Assembly (NCBI RefSeq): GCF_033366695.1
Contig: NZ_JAOBTQ010000001.1
Coordinates: 2,542,001 to 2,606,000 of the forward strand
Direction: 5' to 3'
DNA from: Streptomyces sp. SCL15-4
GTDB lineage: Bacteria; Actinomycetota; Actinomycetes; Streptomycetales; Streptomycetaceae
Length of the DNA stretch: 64,000 bases
Part shown: piece after piece, positions 24,161 through 55,404 of the stretch
Numbering within the stretch: position 1 is the first letter of the stretch
Layout: each line of letters begins with the position of its first letter
Position numbers and translations under genes: made by a program
The notes under the pieces: model-generated
What the model was told of the DNA's origin: nothing
The model's input: the letters and a program-made list of their open reading frames with translations, nothing else
The model's database searches: none

Positions 24161-24182
24161 AGAAAGGCCCTGGCCAGAGGGC
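24161..24182 (-). terminator. Terminator/leader element before the tail tube gene
   Basis: Minus strand GCCCT-CTGGCC-AGGGC followed by CTTTCTCATGCCC and then the tube gene's ribosome-binding site; similar to elements at 14645, 34928 and 48269. Confidence 0.55.
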
Positions 24183-24217
24183 GCAGGGCTTCAGAGGTGG
24201 TGGGTGAAGGGCGGCGG

Positions 24218-24547: not shown

Positions 24548-24560
24548 GGGGTGCCCTCCA

Positions 24561-26354: not shown

Positions 26355-26369
26355 GGCGACCTCCCTGTG

Positions 26370-26630: not shown

Positions 26631-26662
26631 GACAGGCCTCCTTGGTTCCGGAAGAGTGCGGA

Positions 26663-27625: not shown

Positions 27626-27682
27626 GGCTGATGCCTGCCTTTCGCGAGAATGGCCGGCCGGATCAGACCGGGCCGGACGTGG

Positions 27683-28234: not shown

Positions 28235-28275
28235 GCGTGCTCCCGTTGCGGGATCAGGCCGCGCGTTGCGCGCGG

Positions 28276-29307: not shown

Positions 29308-29309
29308 CC

Positions 29310-30689
29310 CTACCCCTCAAGGCCAGCTTGCAAAGGATCGGCCTCCGCAGACGGCTTGGGCCCGTACTCGGCCGCCATGTCGCCCGCCATTGCCCGGTCG
29401 AGAGCGTCCTCGTTAAGGCGACGCCACCGCTCGATCTCCTGCGGTGTAGCGCCCCAGCGCTCCCACAGCACCTCACGCGGTACGCCGAGCGTGCCCATCT
29501 TCACCAGTGCGTCGACCAGCTCGCCTTCCGTCCGCCACTCCGGGGACTTCCACACGATCCGGGCCTGCAAGGAGGCGAACCCGGCCAGGCGCATCGTGCG
29601 CTCCAGGCCCTCCTCCAGGAACCGGCGCCGCTGATAGATCTTGTGGATGAGGCCCGCCTCGGCCGCCTTCAGAGCCTCCGCAGACAGGTTCGTCAACGCC
29701 CCCAGCAGGTAGTGCGGCGGCGTGGAGGTGATGGCCGCGATGTCGCGGACGTCCTCCTCCTTGGCCTTCAGGTAGCCCGTAAGGTCCGCGGCAGCGAACT
29801 GCCCGAACTTGGCGTTATCGCCCTCGGCGACCAGGATCTTGTTCACCGCCACGTCGAACGGCTCGATCTCCTGACCGTTGTCATCAACCGGGATGTCCAT
29901 CCCCGTCGCCCACTTCTGTGGGAACGCCGCCGCTTCCTGCGTCATCATCCGGTCCGCGATCGTCTTGTTGATCCGGTCCTGGATCCCGGTCACCGACCGC
30001 AGCTCCGAGGCCCCCGGCTTCAGCATCCGGGGCCGGTTCGCCAGCTCACCGAACGGCACCTCGCCCAAGACGTTGCGGCCACCCCACTTCTCGCCGGCCA
30101 CCTCCCGCCGCACCCACTGTGGCTTGCCGCCCGTCTTCGGCTCCGGCGCCTCGAACTTGTAAATGCGGTCCGGGAGGTAGAGGGTGCAGCACAGCCGAGC
30201 CGTCCAGTCATCCAGCCACAGCTTCAAAGCTGCTGCCGGGACACCGGGAGCGTCCGGGCGATAGGCCAGGATGACCTGCGTCGGGTGCTCCGGTGTGACC
30301 CGGAAGCCCCCATCCCGTACCGGCGACACCATCAGGTACGCAGTGCCGTGGATCGCGGCCTCCAGAAAGGCGAGCTGAGAACCGCCGTCCAGGTTGTTCT
30401 CCTGCCACAGCTCCCACGCCGCCTCGTCCGCGGCGCCCTCGATGTCCGACTGGAAGCCGGCCACCTCCAGCCGCCCCACGAAAGCGTCCACCACCAGCTC
30501 GCAGTAGTTCGCCCGCGACATCTTCAGCAACCGGCGGAACGGAGCCCGGGCCCTCTCGTGCAGATGCGGCAGCGGATGCTCGCACTCGTAGTAGTCGTCG
30601 TAGACCTTCGTCTCCGCCGACCGCTTGGACAGAGCCTGGTACAGGCGGTCACGCCACCACTCCGGGGACTGGACAGTAGGCTCAGGCAT
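29310..30689 (-). CDS. Portal protein (Gp6/SPP1 family)
   Basis: 459 residues with the family opening WWRDRLYQALSKRSAETKVYDDYYEC and an Asp/Glu-rich middle. The dodecameric portal forms the DNA entry channel. Located directly downstream of TerL, 15 bp apart. Confidence 0.9.
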   Translation of the reverse strand: MPEPTVQSPEWWRDRLYQALSKRSAETKVYDDYYECEHPLPHLHERARAPFRRLLKMSRANYCELVVDAFVGRLEVAGFQSDIEGAADEAAWELWQENNLDGGSQLAFLEAAIHGTAYLMVSPVRDGGFRVTPEHPTQVILAYRPDAPGVPAAALKLWLDDWTARLCCTLYLPDRIYKFEAPEPKTGGKPQWVRREVAGEKWGGRNVLGEVPFGELANRPRMLKPGASELRSVTGIQDRINKTIADRMMTQEAAAFPQKWATGMDIPVDDNGQEIEPFDVAVNKILVAEGDNAKFGQFAAADLTGYLKAKEEDVRDIAAITSTPPHYLLGALTNLSAEALKAAEAGLIHKIYQRRRFLEEGLERTMRLAGFASLQARIVWKSPEWRTEGELVDALVKMGTLGVPREVLWERWGATPQEIERWRRLNEDALDRAMAGDMAAEYGPKPSAEADPLQAGLEG

Positions 30690-30704
30690 CCGGCCCCCTC
30701 TCGG

Positions 30705-32276
30705 TCAGAATCCACGCGCCCTGCGCCTCTTCGGCTTGGCCAGACCCGCGGCGACCGCATCCCCGGCCGCCTCGTGGGCGAGGATCGAGCACATGGCGAT
30801 GTCGATCTTCTGCGACTCGGACGCCTTCTTCAGCAAGTACCGGCCCGCCGGCCGAGCCGCCTTCCGCGCATTGCGGATGTGCTGCCCGGCCCACGTACAG
30901 CCGTCGTGCCGGAAGGTCGAGTCCTTCTTCGTCACGTCCGTCGCCAGCCGCTCGGCCGCGCCGTGCATCTGCGCGATCCGATTCGTGTACCAGCGGGTGA
31001 CGGTCTTCTCTCCGTACCGCTCGGCGAGCGTGTCGCACTCGGACTCCCAGAACGGCGGGTCGAGATAGGCGCGCACCACCCGGTAAGTAGAGAACACCTC
31101 GTCGAAGGCGGTCATCACCTCAAGCCGCGGCACCTGCCCGCTCCACTCGGCCGGGTTCCAGACCGTCGGCCGGGAATCAGGCCCGTAGGTCGGGGTGAAC
31201 TGGTAGCCGTCCAGGGTCTCCAGGCGGATGCCCGTCCAGTCGTCGATGTCAGAGCCGTCGAAGCCCAGTGTCACCGCAGTGCCCGGCTCTACCTCGCGCG
31301 GCTCGCGGCGCAGATCCCAGCGGTCGCCATCGATGTACGCCCCCGTACCGGCGACGATCCGGTTCAGGTAGAACCGCTCGGCCTGGGCCGGGTCCTTCTC
31401 GGCGATCTCAACCAGTTCGCCGTCGATCCGGTCCAGGTCAACCCAGCCGCCGGCGAGAACGGAGGAATCGCCGTAGGCGACGCGCAGCGCCTTGTGCCGC
31501 TCCCGCTTGTTCGCCAGCGACGCCGGCGCCGGAATCCGGTGGTCGCGGTACACGTCCTTCACGGATGCCTCCGCAGTGCGCTGGGCCACGGACTGCTCCG
31601 ACGGATCCCAGGCATTCGTCGTCTCTACCGCGCGGCCGCCCGTGCCTGACAGATTCCTGCGCTGAGTCTCGGCGAGCTTCCAACCGCCGTTCGCCTCCAG
31701 CCAGCTGTGTGTCTCGTCCTGCACCGCGAACGTGATCCGCTGACCGAGTCGGGCCCGGCCCGAGCTGGTGACCGGCTCGATGCGGCCACCGCCCGGGACA
31801 TTGATGCGGGTCTCGCCCGTGTCCGGGATGAAATCCGCCAGCGGCCCCTCGTCAATCATCGGGACGAGCGCGCGATAGACGTTATCCGTCTGGTCCTCGG
31901 ACGTGGCCGCGATCTGGATCCACGGCGTCTCCCACGCCCGTCCCACCGGCTCGCCGCCCGAGTCCCAGCCGGCGAACCTGACCGGGCCGGCCGCCTCGGC
32001 GCACACCATCGCGCAGGTCAGTGGACCCTTGCCCCACTTCTGCGGACGCACCAGCTGGCTGCGGCGGTAGTGCCAGGCCGACCGCCAGCCGTCCTCCGTG
32101 GCGTCCGGTCGGAGCCGGTAGTGCCATGCGAGGAACGTCCACATCTCGTCCGTGAGCAGGTACGGATTGCCGATGTCGTCGCCGTCCGGAATGACGCAGT
32201 GGGCCTCGATCCACTCCCCCACCAGCCAGCCCAGAGTGGGGAATTCACCCGGATGGTCAGGTCCCCGCCACGGCAT
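30705..32276 (-). CDS. terL: Terminase large subunit
   Basis: 523 residues. ATPase with Walker A-like RPQKWGKGP (about residues 78-86) and Walker B ITFAVQDETHSW (about 178-189); the nuclease domain carries GFDGSDIDDWTGI (about 335). Drives genome packaging and cuts DNA at the ends. It overlaps the upstream 63-aa gene by 20 bp. Confidence 0.95.
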   Translation of the reverse strand: MPWRGPDHPGEFPTLGWLVGEWIEAHCVIPDGDDIGNPYLLTDEMWTFLAWHYRLRPDATEDGWRSAWHYRRSQLVRPQKWGKGPLTCAMVCAEAAGPVRFAGWDSGGEPVGRAWETPWIQIAATSEDQTDNVYRALVPMIDEGPLADFIPDTGETRINVPGGGRIEPVTSSGRARLGQRITFAVQDETHSWLEANGGWKLAETQRRNLSGTGGRAVETTNAWDPSEQSVAQRTAEASVKDVYRDHRIPAPASLANKRERHKALRVAYGDSSVLAGGWVDLDRIDGELVEIAEKDPAQAERFYLNRIVAGTGAYIDGDRWDLRREPREVEPGTAVTLGFDGSDIDDWTGIRLETLDGYQFTPTYGPDSRPTVWNPAEWSGQVPRLEVMTAFDEVFSTYRVVRAYLDPPFWESECDTLAERYGEKTVTRWYTNRIAQMHGAAERLATDVTKKDSTFRHDGCTWAGQHIRNARKAARPAGRYLLKKASESQKIDIAMCSILAHEAAGDAVAAGLAKPKRRRARGF

Positions 32277-37211: not shown

Positions 37212-37955
37212 TCAGTAGGAGCTGGCCATCGGCCACGCGGTGCGGACGGGCTGGCGTCGCTCGAACTTGGCGACCAGTGCGGATCGCAGGGCTTCGAGTC
37301 GGTAGCCGTTGCCCCGCGTACCGTCGACTGCCGGGACCTTGGTGACCTTCACGGAGACGCCTTCGGATCGCAGCGCAGCAGCAAGGCGTTTGCCGACGCG
37401 CGAGCGGTACTGCTCTTCGCTCTCGTCGCTGCCGCGCGTGAACTCGGGGTCGACCGTGGCGAGGTAGGCGAACGCCTCGGCGTTGGTTACTGCGCCACGT
37501 CCGGTTGCGGATGCCGCGTTGATCAGGTGCCCTACCACGTTGGGCGCGTCGGCGGTCAGCGTCGAGTGAACAACTTGCAGACGGCTCTCTGTGGATACGC
37601 GCTGGGGATGCGCGGGGCTACCCATGATCACCGCAGCGGTCGCTACGAGGGCAGCAGGGTTCTCATCTCCGAAGTCGAACCACTCCCCGTGGATGCGATA
37701 CGGGGCGAAGTACTCATGGAGGCCGCTCTCCAGCGCCCTGCCTCCGCGTGTCTTCCAGATCAGGTGAAGCGGGACTGGGGAGCCGACGCGGAGGTCGTCG
37801 AGGCGCGCGGCGACGTTCTTCGTGACCCCGATCTTGACAGGCCTGGTGAGTGTTGACCCGATGAGGTACACCCATCGGCTCGCGGTGTCGTCCACTGTGT
37901 CCTTCTTCCTGTTCTGCTGGGGCCGCTCGGTCCGCTGCTTGCGCCGGAAGCGCAC
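37212..37955 (-). CDS. T5orf172-type GIY-YIG protein with C-terminal helical domain
   Basis: 247 residues, GTG start. Residues 27-95 carry WVYLIGSTLTRPVKIGVTKNVAARL...SGLHEYFAPYRIHGEWFDF, the T5orf172/MUG113 branch of GIY-YIG nucleases (VYLI as GIY-equivalent, VKIGVT as YIG-equivalent, catalytic Arg in the RL motif). The C-terminal part is a helical RSRVGKRLAAALRSEGVSV domain. Sits directly downstream of the translocase gene, beyond the palindromic region. Possibly a DNA nickase; not proven. Confidence 0.75.
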   Translation of the reverse strand: MRFRRKQRTERPQQNRKKDTVDDTASRWVYLIGSTLTRPVKIGVTKNVAARLDDLRVGSPVPLHLIWKTRGGRALESGLHEYFAPYRIHGEWFDFGDENPAALVATAAVIMGSPAHPQRVSTESRLQVVHSTLTADAPNVVGHLINAASATGRGAVTNAEAFAYLATVDPEFTRGSDESEEQYRSRVGKRLAAALRSEGVSVKVTKVPAVDGTRGNGYRLEALRSALVAKFERRQPVRTAWPMASSY

Positions 37956-37984
37956 CTGGCAGGGTGGATATGTTCACTTCTGAT

Positions 37985-38100
37985 ACGTCTTGCCGGATGG
38001 ATAGTCGATCTTCGAGGCTGGCTTCCAGCCGGATTCGATCCACCCGCCATCCGGCCCGCAAGACGCCGCAAATGCACACGTATCCACCCGACAAGACGTG
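37985..38100. repeat. Long imperfect palindromic region downstream of the translocase gene
   Basis: Three copies of a CGTCTTG-CGG-type motif (37986, inverted at about 38055-38064 and 38090-38098), including ACGTCTTG (37985) with its perfect inverse CAAGACGT (38091-38099). A large dyad (about 37989-38061) reads CTTGC, CGGATGG, ..., GCTGG-CTT-CCAGC, ..., CCATCCG, GCAAG. It could be an origin of transfer, a translocase-loading (clt-like) site, or the operator of the GIY-YIG gene. Confidence 0.55.
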
Positions 38101-38113
38101 ACATAACGGGCGA

Positions 38114-40336
38114 CTACTCGCCGAGCAGCAGGTCCAGCGCGTCCTTGATGTCATCTCGCCGGTAGCCGCGGACTTGGCCCTCACGACCCGGAATCGTGAT
38201 CTTCACGGTGCCACCCGCGCCCGCCGCGCGCAGCAGCTCCCCGAGCCCGGTCTCGGTCATGCTGCCGCCGATGAGTTCGGCCATCTCCCGCAGCTGCGCC
38301 ACGTCACGGCCGAGCGACTCCATCGCCTTCAGTGCGCCGCGGCAGGCCTCGATCTGCATGCGCTGCTCCGGCGTGCGGGCGATGACGCTGCGCCCCGGCG
38401 CACCGTCCCGCTTCGGGCCGCCGGCCGCCGACGACAACCCGGTGGCGTTGAGGAGGTGCCGCTCGATCGGGTCGTCCCACTGACCGGCCAGCCGCCCCGC
38501 CCGCTCGCGGATCTTCGCGGCCTTCTCCAGCAGCATGCTGATCTCACCACGCTCGTCCTCGTCCAGGTCGAAGCTCCGCGCGAGGTCGGTGACGCCGGCG
38601 AACGGGTTAACCAGCCAGCCGAACCCGGGGCGCGGCGGGTCGAACTTCGAGGCGTCGCGGCCCGCGCCGGCCTGGCCGGCGCCGAGGATAGCGTTCGACT
38701 GGGTGGCGTTCTCCACCCGCATCGCCCACCTGGCGCCGCAGTTCATCGCGAGCGCCTGCGGAATGACGTCGACTTCCGGGTACTGGGTGATGAGCACCAT
38801 GAGGATGCCCGCGCCCGCGGCCACGGCTGACAGCTCGATCAGCGCCTCAAGGATCTCGTCCCGCAAAGGCTTGCCCGGGCGCGTGTAGGTGGCGACCTCG
38901 TCGATGACGAGGAGTTCCATGCCGCCGATCTGCTCGATGACGGCCGGGACCATCTTGCTCTTGCCGAGCTTGCCGAGGTCGCGCTCGCGCCGGTCCTTGT
39001 CAGCGAGGAGGGCCTTCAGGAGGGCGAGCAGGCGCTCCGGGCTGGGCTTGAAGTAGGTGCTGGCGGCCCCTGTCTTGGCGTATGGGTCCCACTCGCCGTT
39101 GTTCTTGCCGGCCACGATCCGCAGGTTGATGCGGGGGTCGAAGGCGACACCGACGGAGAGGTTGGAGGCGCCGACGCCCTTGCCGGACCGGGTCATCCCG
39201 GCGATCACATAGGACTGGTTGTTGATGGCCAGCCGGATGGTGATCCCCCGCTTGTTCCAGGCGACGGGCACCCCATCCTTCCACGCGTCAAGCTGAGTCG
39301 GCCGCTTGAGGAGCGGGGAAGGGCGGGTGTCGGCGAAGGCGTCCTTGTCGGCGAGCCACAGCGAGGTGCGGACCTCCGTGCCGGCTTTCTCGATGTCGAC
39401 CATGGACACGTCGCGGCCGAGCGCGCCGGCCAGCTTGGGCAGCTTCTTCTTCAGCTCGGCGACGGTGGTCCGCGGCGGCAGGTCGAAGACGACCGTGGTG
39501 TTGCCGTCCGTATCGCGTTGCGGCACGGCCAGGATCTGGATCTTCTCCTCCCCGCGCACCTCGCCGATGGCGCGCAGCGCGGATTCGAGTTCTCCGACGG
39601 TGAGCGCGGGCGGCGGCGGGGCGTCAAACTCCCGCGGCTTCGGGGACGGTTCGGGCTTGGCCAGGTCGACCGTGTTCGTGTCCTGTACGGGGGTGGCCAG
39701 CGGCTGCACCGGCATCACTGCCTGCTCCGGCATGGTCGGGGCAGGTGCAGGCTGGCCGGCGACGAAAGGGCGTGACACGAGGTACCAGCCGTAGCCGGCC
39801 GCGGTGCCGAGCGCGGCGAGGACGATGGGCTGCCCGTGGGCGGTCATCTCGACCGCGGTCCCGAGCGCGGGCAGGGAGGCGAAGCCGCCGCCGAAGAGCG
39901 CCGCCGCCCGGCCGGCCTTCTTGGTCTGCCGCAAGCTGGCGATCTCCCGGTCATTCGGGGGCAGCACCGGCTCGGCCTGGATCGCCTCCAGTCGGGCCTC
40001 GGCTTCGGCGACCTGCCCGGCCAAGGCCGGGAGGCCGGCGACCTTGACGCCCTCCTCGCTCTGGGCCTTGGCCATGTGGAGACGCGCGTGCAGCTGGGCG
40101 ACACGACGCTGCTGCTGGGCGATCCGCTCGGCCTGGCGGCGCTGCTTGCGGTCGGTGGCGGCCTGGATGACGTCGACCTGGTCCAGGTCGACGCCGGCCA
40201 GCCAGTCCTTCGTGCGGGCCGCGGCGTTGCGACGCTGCTCGGCGAACGCCGCCTTGATGCGGTCGCCGCGAGTGGGTTCGGCCGCCTCCTCGATGGCCTG
40301 CTGCTCTGTCTGCTCGGGCTCGGCTTCGGTTGCCAC
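38114..40336 (-). CDS. FtsK/SpoIIIE-type (TraB-like) DNA translocase
   Basis: 740 residues, GTG start. Charged coiled-coil N-terminus (20-130), a pair of membrane segments (about 142-187), a Pro-rich linker, and an FtsK-like motor with Walker A GMTRSGKGV (380-388) and Walker B LLVIDE (475-480). The last 100 residues form a probable DNA-recognition winged helix (about 640-740). This matches TraB/TraSA-type translocases, which move dsDNA between Streptomyces mycelia. In a phage genome this is unusual. It is followed by a palindromic DNA region. Confidence 0.85.
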   Translation of the reverse strand: MATEAEPEQTEQQAIEEAAEPTRGDRIKAAFAEQRRNAAARTKDWLAGVDLDQVDVIQAATDRKQRRQAERIAQQQRRVAQLHARLHMAKAQSEEGVKVAGLPALAGQVAEAEARLEAIQAEPVLPPNDREIASLRQTKKAGRAAALFGGGFASLPALGTAVEMTAHGQPIVLAALGTAAGYGWYLVSRPFVAGQPAPAPTMPEQAVMPVQPLATPVQDTNTVDLAKPEPSPKPREFDAPPPPALTVGELESALRAIGEVRGEEKIQILAVPQRDTDGNTTVVFDLPPRTTVAELKKKLPKLAGALGRDVSMVDIEKAGTEVRTSLWLADKDAFADTRPSPLLKRPTQLDAWKDGVPVAWNKRGITIRLAINNQSYVIAGMTRSGKGVGASNLSVGVAFDPRINLRIVAGKNNGEWDPYAKTGAASTYFKPSPERLLALLKALLADKDRRERDLGKLGKSKMVPAVIEQIGGMELLVIDEVATYTRPGKPLRDEILEALIELSAVAAGAGILMVLITQYPEVDVIPQALAMNCGARWAMRVENATQSNAILGAGQAGAGRDASKFDPPRPGFGWLVNPFAGVTDLARSFDLDEDERGEISMLLEKAAKIRERAGRLAGQWDDPIERHLLNATGLSSAAGGPKRDGAPGRSVIARTPEQRMQIEACRGALKAMESLGRDVAQLREMAELIGGSMTETGLGELLRAAGAGGTVKITIPGREGQVRGYRRDDIKDALDLLLGE

Positions 40337-40396
40337 GGATGCGTTCCTTCCTGCTGTCGGCGCGGGGCCCGGTGTGGGCCCCGCGGGGTGGGATGG

Positions 40397-40987
40397 CTAG
40401 CCGAGACCGCCGAGCATCGTGCCGAGTGAACCGACGAGGCTGTTGGTGAGCTGGGAGCCCATGGCGCCGATGACCGTGCCGGACAGGGCGATCCCGAAGA
40501 GGCCCCCGAGGACCGCGTCGGCAACCTTCAACCCGCCGTGCTTGACCTTGTAGAACACGACGATCGCCAGAACGAGGATGGTGACGATGCCGACGCCGAT
40601 CGCACCGCCCCCCGCGGCCTGCGTGGTGATCTGCTGGTTCACCCCGGCCGGCTGCTGCGGGGTGTTCATCGGGTTCTCCAACCGCGTCACTCCGTTGTCC
40701 GGGGTCACGCCGGTGGTGTAGTTCGGGCTGCCGTCCTCCCGGTAGGCGACCGCGGACACCGTGGTGATGTGGCCGGGCGTGGCGTCGTGGCCGTAGCCGC
40801 CCATACCGGTGACCCGCAGGGTGCGGCCGTCGGGCAGCCGCACGGGGGCGGTGACGGTGCGCTCGGCGATGTGCTGGGTGACGGCGGACGCGGGCTCCCC
40901 GGCGGCCACGGTGATCGCGGCGACGCCTCCGAGGAGGGCCACGGCCGCGCCGCCCGAGACGGCGATCTGACGGAAGCTGATGCTCAT
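40397..40987 (-). CDS. Spd-like secreted/membrane protein, 196 aa
   Basis: N-terminal signal-like helix (residues 8-29, IAVSGGAAVALLGGVAAITVA), an extracytoplasmic stretch ending near residue 125, two further hydrophobic segments (about 127-148 and 155-180) and a Gly-rich end. It lies between the translocase and a four-TM protein, the order seen in AICE/plasmid spread (Spd) modules that help plasmid movement along hyphae. The role is inferred from context. Confidence 0.65.
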   Translation of the reverse strand: MSISFRQIAVSGGAAVALLGGVAAITVAAGEPASAVTQHIAERTVTAPVRLPDGRTLRVTGMGGYGHDATPGHITTVSAVAYREDGSPNYTTGVTPDNGVTRLENPMNTPQQPAGVNQQITTQAAGGGAIGVGIVTILVLAIVVFYKVKHGGLKVADAVLGGLFGIALSGTVIGAMGSQLTNSLVGSLGTMLGGLG

Positions 40988-41000
40988 GTTCGGACTCCTC

Positions 41001-42341
41001 TTAGGCGTTGACTTCGGGGGTGTTCTTCACGTGGTTGCGGAGCCGGACGGCGTACTCGTTGGAACCGCCGCCGATCACCTCGCGGACCTTGCGGGCGGAG
41101 AGCCGGTCGACGTCTCCGAGGGCTTCGGCGAGCTTCCGGACCTTCTCGATGTGGGCCGGGTCGAGGGGCCGCTCGGGCGTCTTGGCCGAGGTGCGGCCAG
41201 AGGGCTGCTTCCCTTTACGCCCAAGGGGTTCCGGCCCCTCCGGAGCCTTCCGGGAGCGGGCCCGTGACCCTCCCCCTGTAGGCCCGTTGGAGCGGCCCTC
41301 AGCGGGCGCTCCGGACGATCCGTCGTCGCCTCGGTTCGGGTTGAACGTGTGCGCGAGGAACAGGTCCACGGCGACGCTCTCGGGGCTGCGGCCGGCGTCC
41401 GCGAGGAGGGTCTCGACCGCGGTCCGCGCAACCTCCCGGGCGGCCATACTTCCGGCCGTCACCGCGAGGGGAAGGGCATGCATCGTGTCCCACGCCCGCT
41501 CCCACGCGGCCTCCCGGCTGATGCCTCCCGTCGGGTACGCGGCCGTGACCCGCTCGAACTCTGCGAACACGTCGGGGAACAGCTTCCGCCGCCGCTCGTC
41601 CTCGCTCTTCTCGACCGCCTTGCGCTTCTCCTCGGCCCTCGCCTGCTCGCGGGCGGCACGCCTGTCACGCGCCCGCTGCTTCAGATCCCGGCCGTCCTCC
41701 GCGGCCTTCGACTCCAGGTACTGGCGGACCTCCGCCAGTAGCGGGCCGATCACCGAAGTAGCGGCGAGCGCCCACCCGGCGACTGGGCCGTACTCGGTGC
41801 GGCCGTGGGCCAGGTTGATGTAGCCGGCGATCGACCCCAGCGCCGCGGTGAGGATCCAGAACGGCCACCGGGGCAGGCCCTTACGGTGCGCCCACCGGGT
41901 GCCCATGACGCCGACCCAGGCCAGCAGTTCGAGGAAGAACGGGATCGGGGCGAGTGTCCAGGCCGGACCAGAGGTCGTGTCGCCGTTGCGGTGCAGGCTC
42001 AGGAAGTAGCTGATCTGCGCGGGAAGGGCGGCGAGCAGGCCGAGGGCCATCACGGCGTTGACGAGGATCTTGAAGGTGGTGCCGTTCTCGTCGCGCTGCT
42101 CGCGCCGACGGTCCCTACGCTCGGCCTGGTCGTCCTTGGCGGACTCGGTCACGGCCTTCAACTGGTTCGCCAGCTTGGCCTGCTTCACCTGCTCCGCGAG
42201 CAGTGTGGTCTGCGTCTGCGCGGCCCCGGCGACGGCGGCCTGCTTCACCTGCTCGGCCTCGGCCTTGGTCTTGTCGGCCTTGGCGCTGGTCAGTGCGGCG
42301 TCGGCGTCACGCTCCTTCCAGGAACGGTATTCGCTGCTCAT
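41001..42341 (-). CDS. DUF2637/SpdB-like membrane coiled-coil protein
   Basis: 446 residues. Start at ATG 42341 (MSSEYRSWKERDADAA) because GGAAGGACAG precedes it; the longer frame is unsupported. An Ala/Lys/Gln coiled coil (10-95), four hydrophobic helices (about 97-200), a second charged coiled coil (205-250) and a basic C-terminus ending in a possible HTH (about 380-440, SARKVREVIGGGSNEYAVRLRNH). Four-TM DUF2637-type proteins accompany TraB in Streptomyces conjugative elements. Confidence 0.7.
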   Translation of the reverse strand: MSSEYRSWKERDADAALTSAKADKTKAEAEQVKQAAVAGAAQTQTTLLAEQVKQAKLANQLKAVTESAKDDQAERRDRRREQRDENGTTFKILVNAVMALGLLAALPAQISYFLSLHRNGDTTSGPAWTLAPIPFFLELLAWVGVMGTRWAHRKGLPRWPFWILTAALGSIAGYINLAHGRTEYGPVAGWALAATSVIGPLLAEVRQYLESKAAEDGRDLKQRARDRRAAREQARAEEKRKAVEKSEDERRRKLFPDVFAEFERVTAAYPTGGISREAAWERAWDTMHALPLAVTAGSMAAREVARTAVETLLADAGRSPESVAVDLFLAHTFNPNRGDDGSSGAPAEGRSNGPTGGGSRARSRKAPEGPEPLGRKGKQPSGRTSAKTPERPLDPAHIEKVRKLAEALGDVDRLSARKVREVIGGGSNEYAVRLRNHVKNTPEVNA

Positions 42342-42442
42342 AGCTGTCCTTCCAGGACTCGTGGGGGTGGTCACTGCGTGCTGCTGGTCGGATCTCCAGG
42401 GCCCGCGCCCAGTGGCGTGGGCCGAGGGCTACCGGCCGGCAG

Positions 42443-42637
42443 CTATTCGATGGGCGCGCAGTTCGGGCAGCTGGGGTCGTCGCAGAGTTCGATACGGCCG
42501 CAGCCGATCGCCTCCGACACCCGGTTCGCGACCCGGCCTCCGCGCTCACCGGCCACGGTGCGGCCGATCTGCTGGAGACGCCGGGCGGTCAGCTCTCGGG
42601 TGCTCATGACCTCGGCGGTTCGGTTACGTCGGGACAT
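42443..42637 (-). CDS. Small Cys-containing protein, 64 aa
   Basis: MSRRNRTAEVMSTRELTARRLQQIGRTV start, GAGAGGA ribosome-binding site; ends CDDPSCPNCAPIE (a CxxC site). Basic helix plus metal motif suggest a small DNA-associated protein. Confidence 0.6.
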   Translation of the reverse strand: MSRRNRTAEVMSTRELTARRLQQIGRTVAGERGGRVANRVSEAIGCGRIELCDDPSCPNCAPIE

Positions 42638-42669
42638 GACGGTCCTCTCAGGGTTGGCTGTGCAGTCGG

Positions 42670-42846
42670 TCAGCGTCGGGGGGCGGTTTGCCGGAGGATG
42701 GCCTCGGCCTCTCGCCTGTCGGCCGGGCTCAGCCGGGCGAGGTTGTCCTCCGCGGCTTTACGGGCCGCGGCCGAGTCGAGGACACCGGCTGACACCTGGC
42801 CGGCGAGCTGCTGGATCTGGTGCGCGACGATCTGTCCGAAGCCCAT
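42670..42846 (-). CDS. Small helical protein, 58 aa
   Basis: MGFGQIVAHQIQQLAGQVSAGVLDSAAARKAAED start. Overlaps the upstream gene's stop by 1 bp. Helix-rich; unknown. Confidence 0.55.
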   Translation of the reverse strand: MGFGQIVAHQIQQLAGQVSAGVLDSAAARKAAEDNLARLSPADRREAEAILRQTAPRR

Positions 42847-43388
42847 CAGCTCTCCTGGCCGTAGGTCTCGGACAAGGCGGCCGGCCCGTGGGCGCGGGCG
42901 AAGTCGGCGCCGGCCGCCAGCAGGTCCCGGACCTCGCCCCAGGTGCGGCCCCGGCGAACAACCCAGGCAGTGGCGATGGCGGAACTCGTGCCGGTGAGGC
43001 CCGCGACGAGCGCGTTCAACACCCGGTCGCCGACAGCGGCGGCACCCCCGGAATCCACCCTGAGCTGGGCGGTGATGAGGGTGAGCGGCCCGCGGTCCGG
43101 CCCCAGGGCCTCCCGGACGTACCGCCACGCGCTCACGATCATGGCCTTCAGCGACATGGACTCGTCGATCTCGGGGATCTCCGGGTCGTCCTGCTGGTAG
43201 GTGCGGGTCCACCCGTGCTGCTCCAGCAGCCCACGGAGGGCGTCCAGGTAGTCGGCGACCTCGGCGCCGGGGATGGTCTCCCCGGAGTAGCCGACCCAGA
43301 AGCGGTCGCGCCTCCGGGCCTCGGCCAGGGCCGCCTCGGTCACGGCGTCGGCGGCGAACGGGCTGGCGAGGGTGGGGGTGTCGATCAT
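42846..43388 (-). CDS. DUF6197-like protein, 180 aa
   Basis: MIDTPTLASPFAADAVTEAALAEARRRDRFW start; ALRGLLEQHGWTRTYQQ, MIVSAWRYVREALG and LITAQLRVDSGGAA are in line with a DUF6197-type fold, although the Cys signature is degenerate. Part of the small-gene run downstream of the divergent promoter. Confidence 0.55.
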   Translation of the reverse strand: MIDTPTLASPFAADAVTEAALAEARRRDRFWVGYSGETIPGAEVADYLDALRGLLEQHGWTRTYQQDDPEIPEIDESMSLKAMIVSAWRYVREALGPDRGPLTLITAQLRVDSGGAAAVGDRVLNALVAGLTGTSSAIATAWVVRRGRTWGEVRDLLAAGADFARAHGPAALSETYGQES

Positions 43389-43411
43389 GACTGTCCTCTC
43401 GGAGTGGGGGG

Positions 43412-43636
43412 TCAGGCGGCGGCCGGCAGGTGCAGGCCGCGGATCTCGTCCATCAGCGGCGGCTCCCCGGGATTCGCCGCGTCGTACAAGGCGACCTCGT
43501 AGGCGATGTGCGCCCGGTCGATCAGGTTGGTGGCGGCCAGGTAGTCGGCGATGAACCCGGCCCGGACATCGGCGTGCGCGGCCTCGGTGAGCTGCTCGAA
43601 CGGGTCGCCGGCGGAGATCAGGGTGAAGGTGGGCAT
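43412..43636 (-). CDS. Small protein, 74 aa
   Basis: MPTFTLISAGDPFEQLTEAAHADVRAGFIADYLAATNL start; acidic, helical, ends LHLPAAA. Operon gene of unknown function. Confidence 0.55.
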   Translation of the reverse strand: MPTFTLISAGDPFEQLTEAAHADVRAGFIADYLAATNLIDRAHIAYEVALYDAANPGEPPLMDEIRGLHLPAAA

Positions 43637-43671
43637 GACAGTGCTCCTCAGGAAGTGTGGGATGGGACGGG

Positions 43672-43917
43672 TCAGGCGGTGGGGCGGGGCAGGGCACGGC
43701 ACTTCTCGGCGTGGGCCTGGGCCCACCTGCGAGCGACGTCGATGTGGCTGGAGCCGTAGCCGTCGGTGTAGGGCGTGCCAGCGCATCCGCCACAGACACC
43801 CTTGGTGTCGTAGCCCTCCCCAGTGAGGTCGACGGTGGCGCCGACGACGGTGAGGTAGCGGGCGATGACGCCCTCCGGCCAGACGGTCGCGTGGTCGGTC
43901 TGGATGGAAGCGGGCAT
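43672..43917 (-). CDS. Small protein, 81 aa, two CxxC
   Basis: MPASIQTDHATVWPEGVIARYLTVVGATVDL start; GVCGGCAGTPYTDGYGSSHIDVARRW looks like a zinc-binding mini-domain known from Streptomyces phage proteins. Unknown function. Confidence 0.55.
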   Translation of the reverse strand: MPASIQTDHATVWPEGVIARYLTVVGATVDLTGEGYDTKGVCGGCAGTPYTDGYGSSHIDVARRWAQAHAEKCRALPRPTA

Positions 43918-44018
43918 GACGAATCTCCTCAGCTGGTCAGGCAGGGAATGGGGCGGGGTGGGGGGCCGCGGCCGGCAAGGCGAGGGGATGGGTGCCGGCC
44001 GCGGCCGATCAGAGGCCC

Positions 44019-44096
44019 CTACTGGGGGCGGTTGTTGCTCCACCAGTTCCGGGCGTGGAGCTTCTTCAGCAAGGCGTCGCGCTCGGCGGCGCTCAT
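44019..44096 (-). CDS. Micro-protein, 25 aa
   Basis: MSAAERDALLKKLHARNWWSNNRPQ. Included because its ATG overlaps the stop of the preceding micro-ORF and its codons fit the operon; support is weak. Confidence 0.3.
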   Translation of the reverse strand: MSAAERDALLKKLHARNWWSNNRPQ

Positions 44097-44167
44097 CACA
44101 CGGCCTGCGGGTGACCGCCGCGGGGGCGGGTCGGCAAGGCGTCCTTCGTGCGCTCGTGGCCGGCCAT
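44096..44167 (-). CDS. Micro-protein, 23 aa
   Basis: MAGHERTKDALPTRPRGGHPQAV. ATG at 44167 overlaps the stop of the 110-aa gene, and its own stop overlaps the next ATG, a chain of coupled overlaps. May be a leader-type ORF only. Confidence 0.3.
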   Translation of the reverse strand: MAGHERTKDALPTRPRGGHPQAV

Positions 44168-44499
44168 CACGCGTCGCCGTCCAGCGGCGGGTAGAGCGTC
44201 GCCCGGATCGCACCGAGCACACCGCCCTTCCCCGAGAACTGCGCGTACAGGTGAGTGACGCCGCTCGAGTCGACCCGCTCCGGGCTCACCCGGGCGCCCA
44301 GGTGCCGGGCCCACGCCTCGAACACCGCCCGCTGCTCCGACACGGGCGCCGTCATCAGCGAATCCACGGTCCCGACCAGCGCACCCGACACCGACAGCGT
44401 CCACGACACCGCCGGCAGATCCGCCGCCAGGAACTCACCCAGCGCCTCGAACGCGGCCCGCTGCCAACGACGCCTGTACTTCTGCGAGTCCACGGTCAC
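44167..44499 (-). CDS. Hypothetical protein, 110 aa
   Basis: GTG start in a GTGA overlap with the previous stop. Reads VTVDSQKYRRRWQRAAFEALGEFLAADLPAVSW, then an alpha/beta domain ending RATLYPPLDGDA. Conserved-looking but unassigned. Confidence 0.6.
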   Translation of the reverse strand: MTVDSQKYRRRWQRAAFEALGEFLAADLPAVSWTLSVSGALVGTVDSLMTAPVSEQRAVFEAWARHLGARVSPERVDSSGVTHLYAQFSGKGGVLGAIRATLYPPLDGDA

Positions 44500-44672
44500 C
44501 ACCCCCGCAGCTGCATCACGCGGCGACGCTCGGCCGGCTCCGTGGGCAGCGGCGGCAGATCCGGTGTCGGCTCCACGGCGCGGACGAAGCTCGCCAGCTC
44601 GTGCGCGAGACGGTCGGCCTCGCTGAGGCCCGGCTGCGTCGGCGCCGGACGAGACTCGACGGGGGCAGTCAC
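44496..44672 (-). CDS. Small protein, 58 aa
   Basis: GTG start overlapping the stop of the DUF6907-like gene (GTGA). VTAPVESRPAPTQPGLSEADRLAHELASFVRAV..., Pro/Glu-rich and helical, ending RRVMQLRGW. Unknown. Confidence 0.55.
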   Translation of the reverse strand: MTAPVESRPAPTQPGLSEADRLAHELASFVRAVEPTPDLPPLPTEPAERRRVMQLRGW

Positions 44673-45163
44673 GCCGCACCCCCACGGGCCCGACGCAGCG
44701 CCTCGTCCATGTCCGGGTCGCTGTCGCCGACCGCCCCGTTGTGCGCCCGGGCGGTGGCCGCCAGGTCGCGCAACTGGAGGGCGAAGCGGATGAGGTCGTC
44801 GGCGAACCGGTCGGCCATCTCCGGCGTGTGATAATCCGGCAGGCCGTCCGTCTCGATCCCGATGTGCGCCCGGCGCAGCCGCGGGTCCGACGACGTCGGG
44901 TCCACCTGCAGCATCGCGTACATCAACAGCGAGCCGTCCTGCTTCAGGAAGGACGAGATGCCGACATTCTCGGACTTCGAGGTGTGGACGATGTCCTCGA
45001 ACGGCATCGGCTCCTGGTCGTGCCGCTCGACACACCACGACGGGCACTCGATCGCGGTGACGTGCGCGGACTTCCGGGTGCCGATCAGCGCCGGGACCAG
45101 GCGGTGACCCGGCGCCGGGGCCGGGAGGGTGGTGGTGCTCTCGTGAGGTACGGTAAGGCTCAC
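44669..45163 (-). CDS. DUF6907-like protein, 164 aa, first gene of the leftward operon
   Basis: MSLTVPHESTTTLPAPAPGHRLVPALIGTRK start; CPSWCVERHDQEPMPF and DLIRFALQLRDLAAT match the DUF6907 family of Streptomyces mobile elements. AAGGAG ribosome-binding site after a roughly 100-nt leader containing two hairpins. First gene after the divergent regulatory region, so directly under its control. Confidence 0.75.
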   Translation of the reverse strand: MSLTVPHESTTTLPAPAPGHRLVPALIGTRKSAHVTAIECPSWCVERHDQEPMPFEDIVHTSKSENVGISSFLKQDGSLLMYAMLQVDPTSSDPRLRRAHIGIETDGLPDYHTPEMADRFADDLIRFALQLRDLAATARAHNGAVGDSDPDMDEALRRARGGAA

Positions 45164-45253
45164 GGTTCGGTCTCCTTGCTAGGGAAGGGCGGACCCAGGC
45201 CCCGTTTTGGTGTTGGCGCACCTGACGGGGCTGCTTCGTTTTCCGAAGCGGCC

Positions 45254-45356
45254 TTGTGGCTACAAACATAGCGCCTCGTAGCCACAAAGCAAGCGGTCCG
45301 CCGAGATTTTTGTAGCCACGAACGTCTGTCTGGTTCCTTGCTGTTCGTAGCCACGA
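45254..45356. promoter_or_regulatory. Four-copy operator array (core GTAGCCAC)
   Basis: Cores at 45256-45263 (inverted), 45278-45285, 45312-45319 and 45347-45354; consensus TYGTAGCCACRA. Copies 1 and 2 form an 11-bp inverted pair around a 14-nt spacer. Core centres are about 22, 34 and 35 bp apart. Two copies sit inside promoter spacers (see next entries). Confidence 0.7.
45265..45292 (-). promoter_or_regulatory. Leftward promoter of the DUF6907-FtsK operon
   Basis: Minus strand -35 TTGCTT (45292-45287) and -10 TATGTT (45270-45265) with a 16-bp spacer that contains operator copy 2. The -10 abuts operator copy 1. A roughly 100-nt leader follows. Confidence 0.6.
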
Positions 45357-45367
45357 GCGTCTAACCT
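45338..45367 (+). promoter_or_regulatory. Rightward leaderless promoter of the RHH-like gene
   Basis: -35 TTGCTG (45338-45343), 18-bp spacer containing operator copy 4, -10 TAACCT (45362-45367), then 6 nt and the ATG at 45374: a leaderless start. Confidence 0.65.
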
Positions 45368-45373
45368 CGTGCT

Positions 45374-45613
45374 ATGAGCCCCGATGCCGAGTACGACACC
45401 CCCAGACGCTTCCGGGCCTCGGATGACGAATGGAAGTCCTTCGAGGCGGCAGCACGGGCGGTGCACCCCGACGGACGGAGTCCTCGGGGGCAGGTGCTGC
45501 GCGAATTCATGCGCTGGTACATGCGACGGCCGGGGTCGAGACTGCCCGAGCGCCCTCCCGCCGGGCCGTGGTCAAGTCCGGCACCGGCGGCTGCGCAACC
45601 GCCGGACAAGTGA
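45374..45613 (+). CDS. Ribbon-helix-helix-like regulator, 79 aa
   Basis: MSPDAEYDTPRRFRASDDEWKSFEAAARAVHPDGRSPRGQVLREFMRWYMRRPG: a short strand followed by two helices, the RHH (CopG/MetJ-like) pattern, then a Pro-rich tail. Leaderless. Its promoter spacer contains one operator copy, so it is the best candidate repressor of the array and hence of both divergent operons. Confidence 0.7.
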   Translation: MSPDAEYDTPRRFRASDDEWKSFEAAARAVHPDGRSPRGQVLREFMRWYMRRPGSRLPERPPAGPWSSPAPAAAQPPDK

Positions 45614-45758
45614 CGGCTCCTAGGAGCCTCCTGTCGCTCTGAGCAGGTCGTCTTCATGTGCTCAAGTCAACGCAGGTTGAGGGCAACTAGCGACGATCCA
45701 GCAATGCAGGTGACAGGACAGCCGCAGTGCAAGTGCGCGCGAGAGGCCGGGGGCCGGT

Positions 45759-46394
45759 ATGGACGTGATCGAGACATGGAAAGGCCAGCACGCGGTGGCG
45801 CTACAAGCCGCCATGCGGGCCACCAACGAGGAGTTCGCGCGCCAACTCGGTGTGGCTGTCCGAACCGTCGCGGCGTGGCACGCGACGCCAGCCACTGTGC
45901 CGCGCCGGGAGATGCAGCGTGCGCTCGACACCCTGCTTGACCGGGCAACTCCCGCTGAGCGCCGCCGGTTCGCCACCCTGCTTCACCCCGACGGCGCGGC
46001 TCAGGCGCAGGCTCTGCGCGTGGCCATCGCGGTGGTCGTCCGGGATCGTGAGGTGCTGCTGGTCTGTCGCCGCGGCGAGGACGCCCTGGCGTGGCAGTTT
46101 CCGGCTGGCGTGGTGAAGCCGGGCGGCAGCGCCAGTGCAGTTGCAGTGCAGGAGACCCTCGCCGAGACGGCAGTTCACTGCACCGTGCGGGAGCATCTTG
46201 GCACCCGGGTCCACCCCGTGACTGGGGTGCTGGCCAGCTACGAATTCTGTGAGTACTTGGCTGGCGAGGCACGGAACGTCGACACCGTCGAGAACCTCGA
46301 CACAGCGTGGGTGCCGATCACCAGCTTGACCAAGTTCATTCCGACCGAGCGGATCTATCCGCCCGTCCTGAAAGCTCTGGAGGCTCTGGCATGA
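45759..46394 (+). CDS. HTH-NUDIX fusion with degenerate Nudix box
   Basis: 211 residues. The N-terminal 60 residues have a helix-turn-helix (EEFARQLGVAVRTVAAWHATP). The C-terminal part (65-210) has a NUDIX fold, but the box reads PGGSASAVAVQETLAET: the usual Glu, Arg and first catalytic Glu are replaced by Gly/Gln/Ala. Probably a ligand-sensing regulator more than a hydrolase. GAGAGG precedes ATG 45759. Overlaps the next NUDIX gene by 4 bp. Confidence 0.75.
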   Translation: MDVIETWKGQHAVALQAAMRATNEEFARQLGVAVRTVAAWHATPATVPRREMQRALDTLLDRATPAERRRFATLLHPDGAAQAQALRVAIAVVVRDREVLLVCRRGEDALAWQFPAGVVKPGGSASAVAVQETLAETAVHCTVREHLGTRVHPVTGVLASYEFCEYLAGEARNVDTVENLDTAWVPITSLTKFIPTERIYPPVLKALEALA

Positions 46395-46813
46395 CCGAGA
46401 CGACGACGAAGCCGGGGATCTCCGCGGCGATCATCACGAGCGGGGACCGCGTGCTCATGGTCCGGCGCCGCGTGAAGGAAGGCGAGCTCAGCTGGCAGTT
46501 CCCGGCCGGCGGCATCGAGGAAGGCGAGACGCCCGAGGAGGCCGCAGTCCGCGAGACGCTGGAGGAGACCGGGCTCAAGGTCGAAGCCGTGTCGCTGATC
46601 GGCCAGCGCGTGCACCCGAAGACCGGCCGCGAGATGTCGTACACCGCGTGTCGGGTCATCGACGGTGAGGCCCACGTCGCGGACGAGGACGAGCTGGATT
46701 CCGTCGCCTGGGTGACGCTCGCCGAGATCCCGGGTCTGGTCCCCTACGGGCTGTACGAGCCCGTCCAGAAGTACCTCGACAGTGAACTCACCCACGCCAA
46801 GGAGGCGCATTGA
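46391..46813 (+). CDS. NUDIX hydrolase (Pif-like)
   Basis: 140 residues with an intact Nudix box GGIEEGETPEEAAVRETLEETGL (split: Gly, Glu, Arg-Glu and Glu-Glu all present). It should hydrolyse a nucleoside diphosphate linked to another moiety. NUDIX proteins of this kind occur in actinomycete AICEs; Pif of pSAM2 blocks redundant transfer, so a recipient-exclusion role is plausible here. Confidence 0.85.
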   Translation: MTETTTKPGISAAIITSGDRVLMVRRRVKEGELSWQFPAGGIEEGETPEEAAVRETLEETGLKVEAVSLIGQRVHPKTGREMSYTACRVIDGEAHVADEDELDSVAWVTLAEIPGLVPYGLYEPVQKYLDSELTHAKEAH

Positions 46814-47346
46814 CCAAGCATTTGGAAGTCGTGCCCGATTTCCAGGACACCTTTGAGCGTCCAGCCTGGTGGCACAGGCAGCAGTGGCTCTCGTCGCGTC
46901 CCGCCGCTTCAGCACCCCGGCTGCCCATGAGCGAGAAGATGCGGCGGCGAGCATACGAGCGAGAAGGCATTCCGTACCCCGGGCCGGAGCGGTCCGGCAC
47001 CGTGCAGTCGGATCCTCAGCCTGTCCGGTCCGCCACCCCTCCTCATCGATCACCAAAGTGGAAAGCCGCCAACGGCAAACCGCACACGTACTTGGTCACG
47101 GCCGAGGGCACGCATCTGGTGAAGATCGGCATCGCGAAGGATCCGAGGCGCAGGCTGAAGGAACTTCAGACGGGCCAGCCCATGGATCTCTTCCTGATGT
47201 GGGCCGTCGAGGGCGACTACGAGCAGGCCCTGCACGACCTGTTCGCCGCGTACCGCCACCGCGGCGAGTGGTTCGACCTGCGCGAGCTGGGCGACCCGGT
47301 GGCCGTCGTGACCGACGCCATGAACGAGATCAAGGGAAACGAGTAA
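46810..47346 (+). CDS. T5orf172-type GIY-YIG protein, second copy
   Basis: 178 residues, TTG start overlapping the NUDIX stop. Disordered N-terminus; residues 90-155 hold HTYLVTAEGTHLVKIGIAKD, RRLKELQTGQPMDLFLMW, ALHDLFAAYRHRGEWFDL, the T5orf172 domain also present at 37.2 kb. Probably a nuclease or DNA-binding relative. The two copies bracket the transfer-like block. Confidence 0.75.
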   Translation: MTKHLEVVPDFQDTFERPAWWHRQQWLSSRPAASAPRLPMSEKMRRRAYEREGIPYPGPERSGTVQSDPQPVRSATPPHRSPKWKAANGKPHTYLVTAEGTHLVKIGIAKDPRRRLKELQTGQPMDLFLMWAVEGDYEQALHDLFAAYRHRGEWFDLRELGDPVAVVTDAMNEIKGNE

Positions 47347-47359
47347 ACCGCCCGCCTCC

Positions 47360-47383
47360 GCCCCCGGCTTGCCGGGGGCTTTC
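47360..47383 (+). terminator. Intrinsic terminator
   Basis: GCCCCCGGC-TT-GCCGGGGGC followed by TTT, just after the GIY-YIG gene; ends the rightward operon. Confidence 0.75.
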
Positions 47384-47513
47384 CCGTGCGCCGCCTGGTG
47401 CCACTGTTACTGCCGATTTGTGGCGCGCGCCACAACCGGCGAGTACCGGTTGCTGGCCGACTCCCCGGGGCGCCACGCTGCCGTCAACTGGGCCTAGTAC
47501 TGCGGAGGTTGCG

Positions 47514-47834
47514 TTGCTCGTCTGCCCGTCACCGAAGTGTGGTAGCCCGAACGTCGCGGATCTCCCGCACTACTGGGCGTCCTTGCCGGCGGAGTCGCCG
47601 TTGAAGGGCCGGTACGCCCCGCCGGCGAAGTTCGAGGCGACGTACTGGGCGGCGCTGGCGGCGGTGGTGTTGGGGATCGCGGTGACGGTGTCGGGCTCGT
47701 TGTTCGGGCTGCTCATCGCGGCGGGTGGGCTGGGCTGGGGTGCGGTGGTGCGCTCCCGGCTGGCGGAGGCGGAGGCTCGGTTGGCGGACTGGAATAGCTC
47801 GCGGGTGTGTCTGGCCTGCACTGGCACGTTCTGA
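47514..47834 (+). CDS. Membrane protein with terminal zinc motifs, 106 aa
   Basis: TTG start with GGAGG 5 nt upstream, which decides it. Starts LLVCPSPKCGSPNV (CxxxxC), has a hydrophobic pair of helices (about 45-78, AALAAVVLGIAVTV and LFGLLIAAGGLGWG) and ends VCLACTGTF. Conserved-looking Streptomyces membrane protein of unknown role, the last rightward gene of the block. Confidence 0.6.
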   Translation: MLVCPSPKCGSPNVADLPHYWASLPAESPLKGRYAPPAKFEATYWAALAAVVLGIAVTVSGSLFGLLIAAGGLGWGAVVRSRLAEAEARLADWNSSRVCLACTGTF

Positions 47835-54372: not shown

Positions 54373-55404
54373 TCATGCGGCGCCGTCGAAGTCGAGGACA
54401 CCTTGGGCGAACCGGTCCTTGGCGAGGTCGTGGTAGGCCGGGTTGAGGTCGATGCCGACGTACTTCCGGCCTAGCTGGCGTGCTGCGGCGCCCGTGGTAC
54501 CCGAGCCGCTGAACGGGTCGAGGACGGTCCCGCCCGGGCGGCATCCGGCGTTGATGCAGCGCAGCGGCAGGTCGATCGGGAACACCGCGAAGTGCGCGGC
54601 CGGGTAGGGCCTCGTCGGTATGGCCCAGACGTCGCCGGGATTCCTCCCGAGCGGGTGACCGTCCACTCCGACCTCATTGCGCGTAGCCGTCGACCAGGTC
54701 TGCTTGGGCTGCCCCGGCCGGGGGATCTTGTCGACGGGACGCCCGGAGGGCCTGCGCTGGGGTCGCATCGCGTGCGGCTCGCGGATCGGGTCAAGGTCGA
54801 ACCAGTACCGCTCCGCCTTGGAGAACAGGAACAGGTGCTCGTACCGGTTCGACAGCCGGTCGTTCACGGAGGACGGCATGGCGTTCGTCTTGTGCCACAC
54901 GATCTTGTTGCGGAGGATCCAGCCGTCGTCCTGGAGCGCCATCGCTACCCGCTCGGGGATCATCAGCAGGTTCTTCGGCGGCAGGCCCGTCACGGCGCGG
55001 CGCGCGGCCGCCACCTCGGCGCCGTCACGACGACGGGACGGCCGACCCTTCTCCTGCTTTCGCTGGCCGCTGCTGCCCTCGCCGTGCCACCGCTCATTGA
55101 AGTCGGTGTTCAGCGCACCTTGGCCGCTGCTGTAGCTGTCACCGAGGTTCAGCCACAGCGTCCCGTCGTCGGCGAGCACACGCCGCGCCTCGGCGAACAG
55201 GGCGCGCATCGTCTCCACGTACTCGGCCGGCGTTGCCTCCAACCCGTACTGACCCTCGGCGCCGTAGTCGCGGAGCCCGTAGTAGGGCGGGCTGGTGACG
55301 ATGCAGTCCACGGAGCTGTCAGGCAGGGTGCGCAGTTGGTCGAGCGCGTCACCGAGGAGCAGGGTGATCTGCTCGTCGCGGTAATAGGGCTGCCAGTCGT
55401 TCAC
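54373..55404 (-). CDS. DNA methyltransferase, N4-cytosine/N6-adenine type
   Basis: 343 residues, GTG start after AGGAG. Catalytic motif TSPPYYGLRDY (37-47) comes first and the AdoMet motif DPFSGSGTTG (296-305) last, the beta-class order. SPPY favours N4-cytosine methylation but does not settle it. Probably self-protection against host restriction; there is no matching nuclease beside it. Confidence 0.9.
   Translation of the reverse strand: MNDWQPYYRDEQITLLLGDALDQLRTLPDSSVDCIVTSPPYYGLRDYGAEGQYGLEATPAEYVETMRALFAEARRVLADDGTLWLNLGDSYSSGQGALNTDFNERWHGEGSSGQRKQEKGRPSRRRDGAEVAAARRAVTGLPPKNLLMIPERVAMALQDDGWILRNKIVWHKTNAMPSSVNDRLSNRYEHLFLFSKAERYWFDLDPIREPHAMRPQRRPSGRPVDKIPRPGQPKQTWSTATRNEVGVDGHPLGRNPGDVWAIPTRPYPAAHFAVFPIDLPLRCINAGCRPGGTVLDPFSGSGTTGAAARQLGRKYVGIDLNPAYHDLAKDRFAQGVLDFDGAA

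Follow-up and report, generated by a model that had tools for sequence, protein, structure and literature searches.

The plasmid-phage pZL12 (phage ZL12, GQ919031), which reportedly forms particles and plaques, is a circular 90-kb record that combines virion genes with a tra locus, and on its map a GntR gene, a membrane gene, a gene for a large protein and a gene for an FtsK-like protein are followed by the terminase gene. pZL12 is reported as conjugative (PMC3583192), and a conjugative phage element is therefore not new in principle. The same source describes binding of 8-bp repeats by TraB of pSVH1 (NC_007431) via its winged helix, and reports conjugation of pWTY27, whose cis-acting locus of transfer (clt) consists of 16 bp of traA and the adjacent 159 bp and contains direct and inverted repeats. 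Actinomycete integrative and conjugative elements (AICEs) carry int, rep and tra functions; in pSAM2 transfer is of the TraB type, and the NUDIX protein Pif acts against redundant transfer (PMC3218068). Here we analyzed a window of 64,000 nt from the 8.4-Mb, Streptomyces-type genome of Streptomyces sp. SCL15-4 (NZ_JAOBTQ010000001.1, positions 2,542,001 to 2,606,000). A siphophage prophage integrated in this chromosome carries a TraB-type cassette upstream of its terminase gene, terL, and likely uses it for the particle-free passage of double-stranded DNA from hypha to hypha.

The cassette follows the gene order of pSVH1: a divergent regulator, small genes, an SpdB2-like gene, a gene for a membrane protein and the gene for the TraB-like translocase, with repeats directly after traB (Table 1). 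pSVH1 itself is a 12.7-kb plasmid with a Rep gene and a GntR gene and without virion genes, whereas in the prophage two NUDIX genes occupy the regulator position, the first of which gave a weak helix-turn-helix (HTH) signal. PMC9513070 mentions a Streptomyces ICE gene that combines HTH and NUDIX domains. When profiles were compared with hhalign (the window-type profiles included plasmid pZL1), the translocase and the SpdB2-like protein scored 99.9% and 99.6% against TraB and SpdB2 of pSVH1, respectively, and three control pairs scored 0.2-0.3%. The translocase is related to pSVH1 TraB, although its match to PF01580 (FtsK/SpoIIIE; E 0.011) was below the cut-off. It differs from pSVH1 TraB, which has a canonical GKS P-loop, in the P-loop and in the C-terminal domain, and the repeats after the two genes differ in sequence. 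The P-loop form GxxRxGKG was kept in 22 of 22 translocases of the window's type. The ratio of nonsynonymous to synonymous substitution rates (dN/dS) of the translocase was 0.25-0.31 in comparisons with L059, L060, L061 and L065, and its structure model was of medium quality (predicted local distance difference test, pLDDT, 68; predicted template modeling score, pTM, 0.48). The 196-aa membrane protein was assigned by position and hydropathy alone; a gene of similar size occupies its place in several relatives. All frames of the cassette are open and of full length.

Table 1. Features of the prophage and its transfer cassette in window numbering
Feature	Position	Strand	Basis or remark
Prophage	7486-70759 (63.2 kb; 7486-64000 inside the window)		att repeats and uninterrupted site in relatives
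attL core	7486-7524		39-bp core; right copy 70721-70759, one mismatch between copies
Virion and lysis genes	13863-32222	-	PHROGs
Endolysin	13863-14624	-	PHROGs
Minor/distal tail	17846-18712	-	PHROGs
Tape measure	18727-22830	-	PHROGs
Major tail	23663-24142	-	PHROGs
Adaptor	25785-26354	-	PHROGs
Major head	26663-27625	-	PHROGs
Scaffold	27683-28234	-	PHROGs
Protease	28276-29307	-	PHROGs
Portal	29310-30689	-	PHROGs
terL	30705-32222	-	PHROGs, phrog_9
Predicted clt	37956-38113	-	repeat array in 158-bp gap after traB
TraB-like translocase	38114-40336	-	740 aa; FtsK-type motor ~240-630, predicted winged helix ~656-737
Non-canonical P-loop GMTRSGKG	39176-39199	-	alignment residues 380-387
196-aa membrane protein	40397-40987	-	between SpdB2-like gene and traB; three hydrophobic stretches
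SpdB2-like membrane protein	41001-42341	-	hhalign 99.6% to pSVH1 SpdB2
Small cassette genes	42846-45163	-	
DUF6197 gene	42846-43388	-	small cassette gene
Two small genes	43412-43636, 43672-43917	-	relatives in CP042280
Small gene	44167-44502	-	relatives in two sister prophages
DUF6907 gene	44669-45163	-	small cassette gene
NUDIX pair, presumed cassette regulator	45759-46813 (45759-46394; 46391-46813)	+	divergent from cassette
Integrase-like gene of prophage	69367-70644 (outside the window)		integrase N-terminal domain match below cut-off

The gap after traB contains a repeat array. GGGTGGAT was found there in two exact forward copies (38082-38089 and 38038-38045) and one exact facing copy (37962-37969), with variants at 38049-38056 and 37995-38002, so that copies stand at offsets 27, 60, 71, 114 and 147; L067 and L068 retain repeats at these offsets. 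A blind scan recovered the pSVH1 repeat GACCCGGA, which we take to be the clt repeat of that plasmid, in four copies directly after traB, and the window array occupies the same place. A first search for exact 8-mers with four copies in 200 bp gave nothing in the window and returned the pSVH1 clt, one L059 cluster off the gap and two clusters in Streptomyces sp. H27-H1 (G321); the arrays emerged after the search had been restricted to the traB gap with one mismatch allowed. Under these settings, 1 of 60 dinucleotide shuffles matched the window array, and at most 1 of 60 reached the array in 34 of the 38 gaps tested, which comprised the window, pSVH1, pZL1, the prophages of S. luteolifulvus (G382) and S. 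resistomycificus (G343) and 33 viral loci (L078 with a broken frame, L093 with a truncated translocase and the type without a gap were left out). Among 21 prophage gaps of at least 110 bp, the traB gap had the highest z (5.1; next, 2.1), and one other 161-bp stretch, near 57029, equaled the window's four GGTGGAT-like hits among 1706 stretches. Successive copies were often spaced by 10-12, 21-23 or 33 bp, and many arrays were split into a forward half and a facing half. Array repeats of other loci include CCCGGAC in L060 and CTGCTCA in L080.

The array sequence tracked the predicted C-terminal recognition domain of the translocase and not the motor. Across 36 elements (the window, G382, pSVH1, pZL1 and 32 viral loci), array similarity rose with the similarity of the last 95 residues once the motor had been corrected for (partial r = 0.52, 0 of 999 permutations, in a test that takes shared ancestry into account through the motor only), and after the converse correction no correlation with the motor was left (partial r = -0.01, n = 36). 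In L074 and L075, a window-type motor is combined with a C-terminal domain from the cluster of the S. luteolifulvus type and with the CTGCTCA-like repeats of that type. The window motor was 90-91% identical to those of L059, L060, L061 and L065, whereas the last 40 residues were 92% identical to L068 (motor 80%), with which the window has its repeat in common. The residues from 90 to 40 before the end were not L068-like, being 59% identical to L068 and 69-71% identical to L059, L060, L061 and L065.

The borders of the prophage are marked by the two att copies. At E 1e-20 or better, the joined host flanks had matches in 174 of 246 genomes (the own genome included, and many matches partial), and several matches were nearly full length, such as one in G111 that covered 337 of 339 bases at 90%. 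In the own genome the joined flanks matched as two halves, with the att copies 63.2 kb apart. The right copy lies within the 3' end of a gene whose product, judged by eye, is a secreted chitinase; since the prophage ends at 70759, its right end with the integrase-like gene falls outside the window. This integrase-like protein was 58% identical to its counterpart in G321 and serves the whole prophage, not the transfer block, which contains no integrase of its own. A second integrase-like gene near the left end (10528-11547, minus strand; Pfam Phage_integrase, E 1.4e-7) had no match in seven compared sequences. RecT and RecE-like genes lie on the far side of the prophage from the virion genes. 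No Pfam family for RepSA, RepAM or Prim-Pol was present among the prophage proteins scanned (some small proteins were outside the scan), and ParA/ParB had no match among them. We know of no Pfam model for RepSA.

We also inspected the place upstream of terL in three sister prophages (G382, G343 and G321), whose terL genes were 93, 83 and 68% identical to that of the window. Three other translocase types were found there, preceded by a membrane gene, with a GntR-like gene farther upstream that is divergent in G382 and G321 and on the same strand in G343. The SpdB2 of the G321 type had no match to pSVH1 SpdB2, and the B-type SpdB2 matched it in hmmsearch (E 1e-18 against a single sequence) but was missed by hhalign. 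Because sister prophages of the same terL lineage carry cassettes of other translocase types at the equivalent position, we rejected an AICE inserted into a phage. Together with the lack of an own integrase and of an AICE replication family among the proteins scanned, these results indicate that the cassette is a resident phage cassette. Unlike AICEs, the prophage has virion genes; an AICE survey excluded fragments that had no more than two of the AICE components, regarding them as probable remnants, prophages or others (PMC3218068). The initial annotation had described an AICE-like block embedded in a siphophage prophage. A TraB-type block within a prophage with the full siphophage gene classes was indeed present, and membership among the AICEs had to be dropped. 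Its hybrid of virus and conjugative element is the best reading of the block, and its alternative of a phage-plasmid does not apply here, because this copy sits in the chromosome.

Since it has relatives of the DNA pump and the spread protein of a conjugative Streptomyces plasmid, together with a repeat array at the corresponding position, the prophage would likely be able to move from hypha to hypha in the form of naked DNA as well as in particles. In the mechanism we propose, the winged-helix domain of TraB would bind the excised prophage circle at the array, and a TraB hexamer would pump the circle, unprocessed, into a hypha in contact with the donor. Its spread across septa would be aided by the SpdB2-like and small membrane proteins, and the recipient would become a lysogen via the integrase. 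The divergent NUDIX pair, in whose stead the sister prophages have a GntR gene, would silence the cassette in the lysogenic state and may prevent repeated transfer in the manner of Pif in pSAM2. If functional, such a cassette could allow a lysogen to transmit its prophage through cell contact, with no need for lysis and bypassing phage resistance at the receptor, and would blur the boundary between virus and conjugative element in mycelial bacteria.

Several findings weigh against transfer between hyphae. Relatives of the translocase are present in plaque-forming phages: 89 isolated Streptomyces phage records matched the S. luteolifulvus type, 76 phage records, mostly of Bacillus and with 22-27% identity among the matches listed, matched the S. 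resistomycificus type, and the pZL12 type was matched in phages Hiyaa, Galactica, Spocter, Keanu and P1312. Isolated phages also carry FtsK-like proteins without evident partners; in Evy the gene has no annotated partners and no gap after it. The translocase could accordingly serve the phage within its own cell, for DNA movement across septa, replication or a step before packaging, with nothing sent to other cells. We consider this rather unlikely. The window type matched 56 of 72,556 plasmid records and 2 of 50,697 phage records, the latter weakly and both from Staphylococcus, and no Streptomyces phage among these phage records matched at E 1e-5. Homologs mainly in ordinary lytic phages, which the initial annotation had named as counterevidence, were therefore not found for the window type and were found in part for the S. 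luteolifulvus and S. resistomycificus types. In addition, an SpdB2 relative and an array at the clt place accompany the translocase, which speaks against a role confined to the own cell.

Further points against the proposed transfer concern the array. Four gaps failed the shuffle test, those of pZL1 (2 of 60 shuffles), L073 (5), L059 (50) and L065 (23); L059 and L065, with the closest motors, thus have no significant array. In the G321 type and its 13 viral relatives the gaps are 8-25 bp long and contain no array, and none was found in the gap after 71c of pZL12. The window gap can form an RNA hairpin (z -3.2, exceeding 199 of 200 shuffles), so the array may be a transcription terminator rather than a clt; a terminator scan, which requires a T tail, found no T-tailed terminator there. 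The covariation could reflect linkage by recombination instead of selection for a match between domain and array, because the two are adjacent and linkage alone could yield it. Within the cassette, the P-loop lacks Ser/Thr, the SpdB2-like protein was near saturation in four of six comparisons, and the 196-aa membrane protein was under little or no constraint (five comparisons, dN/dS 0.55-1.1).

A cassette that mobilizes chromosomal markers or distributes the prophage within one mycelium, with little transfer to other strains, is improbable in our judgment. PMC6722414 describes the mobilization of chromosomal markers in trans by TraB, and PMC9513070 assigns Spd proteins a role in spreading within the recipient mycelium, but an array on the phage itself favors transfer in cis. 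Marginally less probable still is a passing plasmid acquisition without present function, to which the odd P-loop, the weakly constrained membrane protein and the absence of a cassette near most terL relatives would point, and against which stand the open frames, the constraint on the translocase, the array offsets kept in L067 and L068 and the GKG loop common to all 22 relatives.

To return to hypha-to-hypha transfer, relatives of the cassette are present in dozens of further viral sequences. In a scan of 2.9 million contigs chosen as viral by IMG/VR, the four translocase types were found at 20, 13, 2 and 13 loci (48 contigs), 41 of which had a terminase or portal gene: terL of phrog_9 in 30, phrog_2 in 4 more, a phrog_104 portal in a further 6 and the phrog_38 terminase of CP042280 in 1. 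For the 34 contigs with phrog_9 or phrog_2, terL lay on the same strand 3.3-20.8 kb downstream of the translocase in 24, on the same strand but, in the layout of the record, upstream in 4, and on the opposite strand in 6. L093 was left out of all module counts. A gene for 330-540 aa preceded the translocase at 44 of 47 loci, the other three being at contig ends. Where at least 8.5 kb of upstream sequence was available (37 loci), GntR was found at 13, NUDIX at 21 and either at 31; two opposite-strand NUDIX genes, as in the window prophage, stood upstream at 18 of the 37, and such a pair looks like an alternative to GntR.

Among 199 genomes of the same genus drawn without selection, the window translocase type was detected in 8 at E 1e-40, the own genome included. 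Flanks of 10-20 kb in the other seven showed virion genes beside the translocase in two, namely terminase, portal and capsid in G174 and terL 8 kb downstream in G157, and none in five. The type stands beside three terminase families, phrog_9 in the window, phrog_2 in G174 and phrog_38 in CP042280. One translocase type beside at least three terminase families suggests that the cassette is mobile between plasmids and virion lineages that are unrelated to each other.

We then asked how regularly the cassette accompanies terL. For 16 of 24 terL relatives, at least 9.2 kb of upstream sequence could be judged (G076, with 71% terL identity and 3.3 kb upstream, was left out), and about 10 kb was examined for the four translocase types and the pZL12 type. 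Such a translocase was found upstream in 3 of the 16 (L107, L108 and L113), all already known. The other 13, two Streptomyces loci (L114 and L115) and 11 loci from other genera or metagenome-assembled genomes, had none within ~10 kb, which also counts against the proposed transfer. The isolated phage Kromp (terL 63%) has no annotated translocase. The cassette is thus not a standard slot throughout the terL lineage, and these results also lower the probability of a wider class. We propose, tentatively and with slightly less than even confidence, a class of dual-mode Streptomyces temperate phages that have a place upstream of the terminase for a complete plasmid-type cassette (regulator, SpdB2, TraB and clt), exchange cassettes as well as units of clt plus recognition domain, and travel in particles as well as in the form of naked circles, with the cassette moving among unrelated virion lineages and plasmids.

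pZL12 differs from the prophage in its ParA/ParB genes and its phrog_38 terminase family; its FtsK-like protein is nearest to the S. resistomycificus type (96.7%) and not to the window type, and its 73c had no match to pSVH1 SpdB2. A pZL12 relative, pSLE1, has two putative integrases (PMC4487206). The closest plasmid translocase match (64.4% over 51%) was in CP042280, a 92.6-kb circular plasmid of Streptomyces sp. WAC08241 whose record has no annotation; it likewise has an SpdB2-like gene and a terminase downstream, but is a plasmid with a phrog_38 terminase. Its translocase (L011, 37483-39542) is split into two overlapping frames, a frameshift or sequencing error, and the terminase lies 4 kb downstream. 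Isolated phages (the Evy group, Hiyaa and P1312) resemble the prophage in a phage-borne FtsK-family translocase and differ in translocase type; no gap follows the gene in Evy and Hiyaa, and the gap in P1312 is 134 bp long. The FtsK-like translocase lies near an annotated membrane protein in Hiyaa (L143) and after a large protein of unassigned function in Thermobifida phage P1312 (L144); both loci are possibly distant cassettes of the same kind. A literature search by title and start of abstract, with most subscription journals outside its coverage, returned no description of TraB/clt cassettes in chromosomal Streptomyces prophages. New here are integrated prophages with a pSVH1-type cassette and array, the exchange of cassettes in one place and the exchange of domain and array. 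The covariation of array and C-terminal domain supplies natural variants for the study of TraB site recognition.

Two DNA methyltransferase genes were assigned by PHROGs in the early region (54373-55404 and 59382-61061, minus strand), and the protein at 64246-65424 in window numbering (L008:2246-3424) weakly resembled the DNA polymerase III beta clamp (E 0.0027, below the cut-off). At L053 (G321:C77:106972-107111), CTGTACCG occurs five times in 140 bp, ~14 kb from a translocase of the array-less type; this cluster may be a clt or replication iterons.

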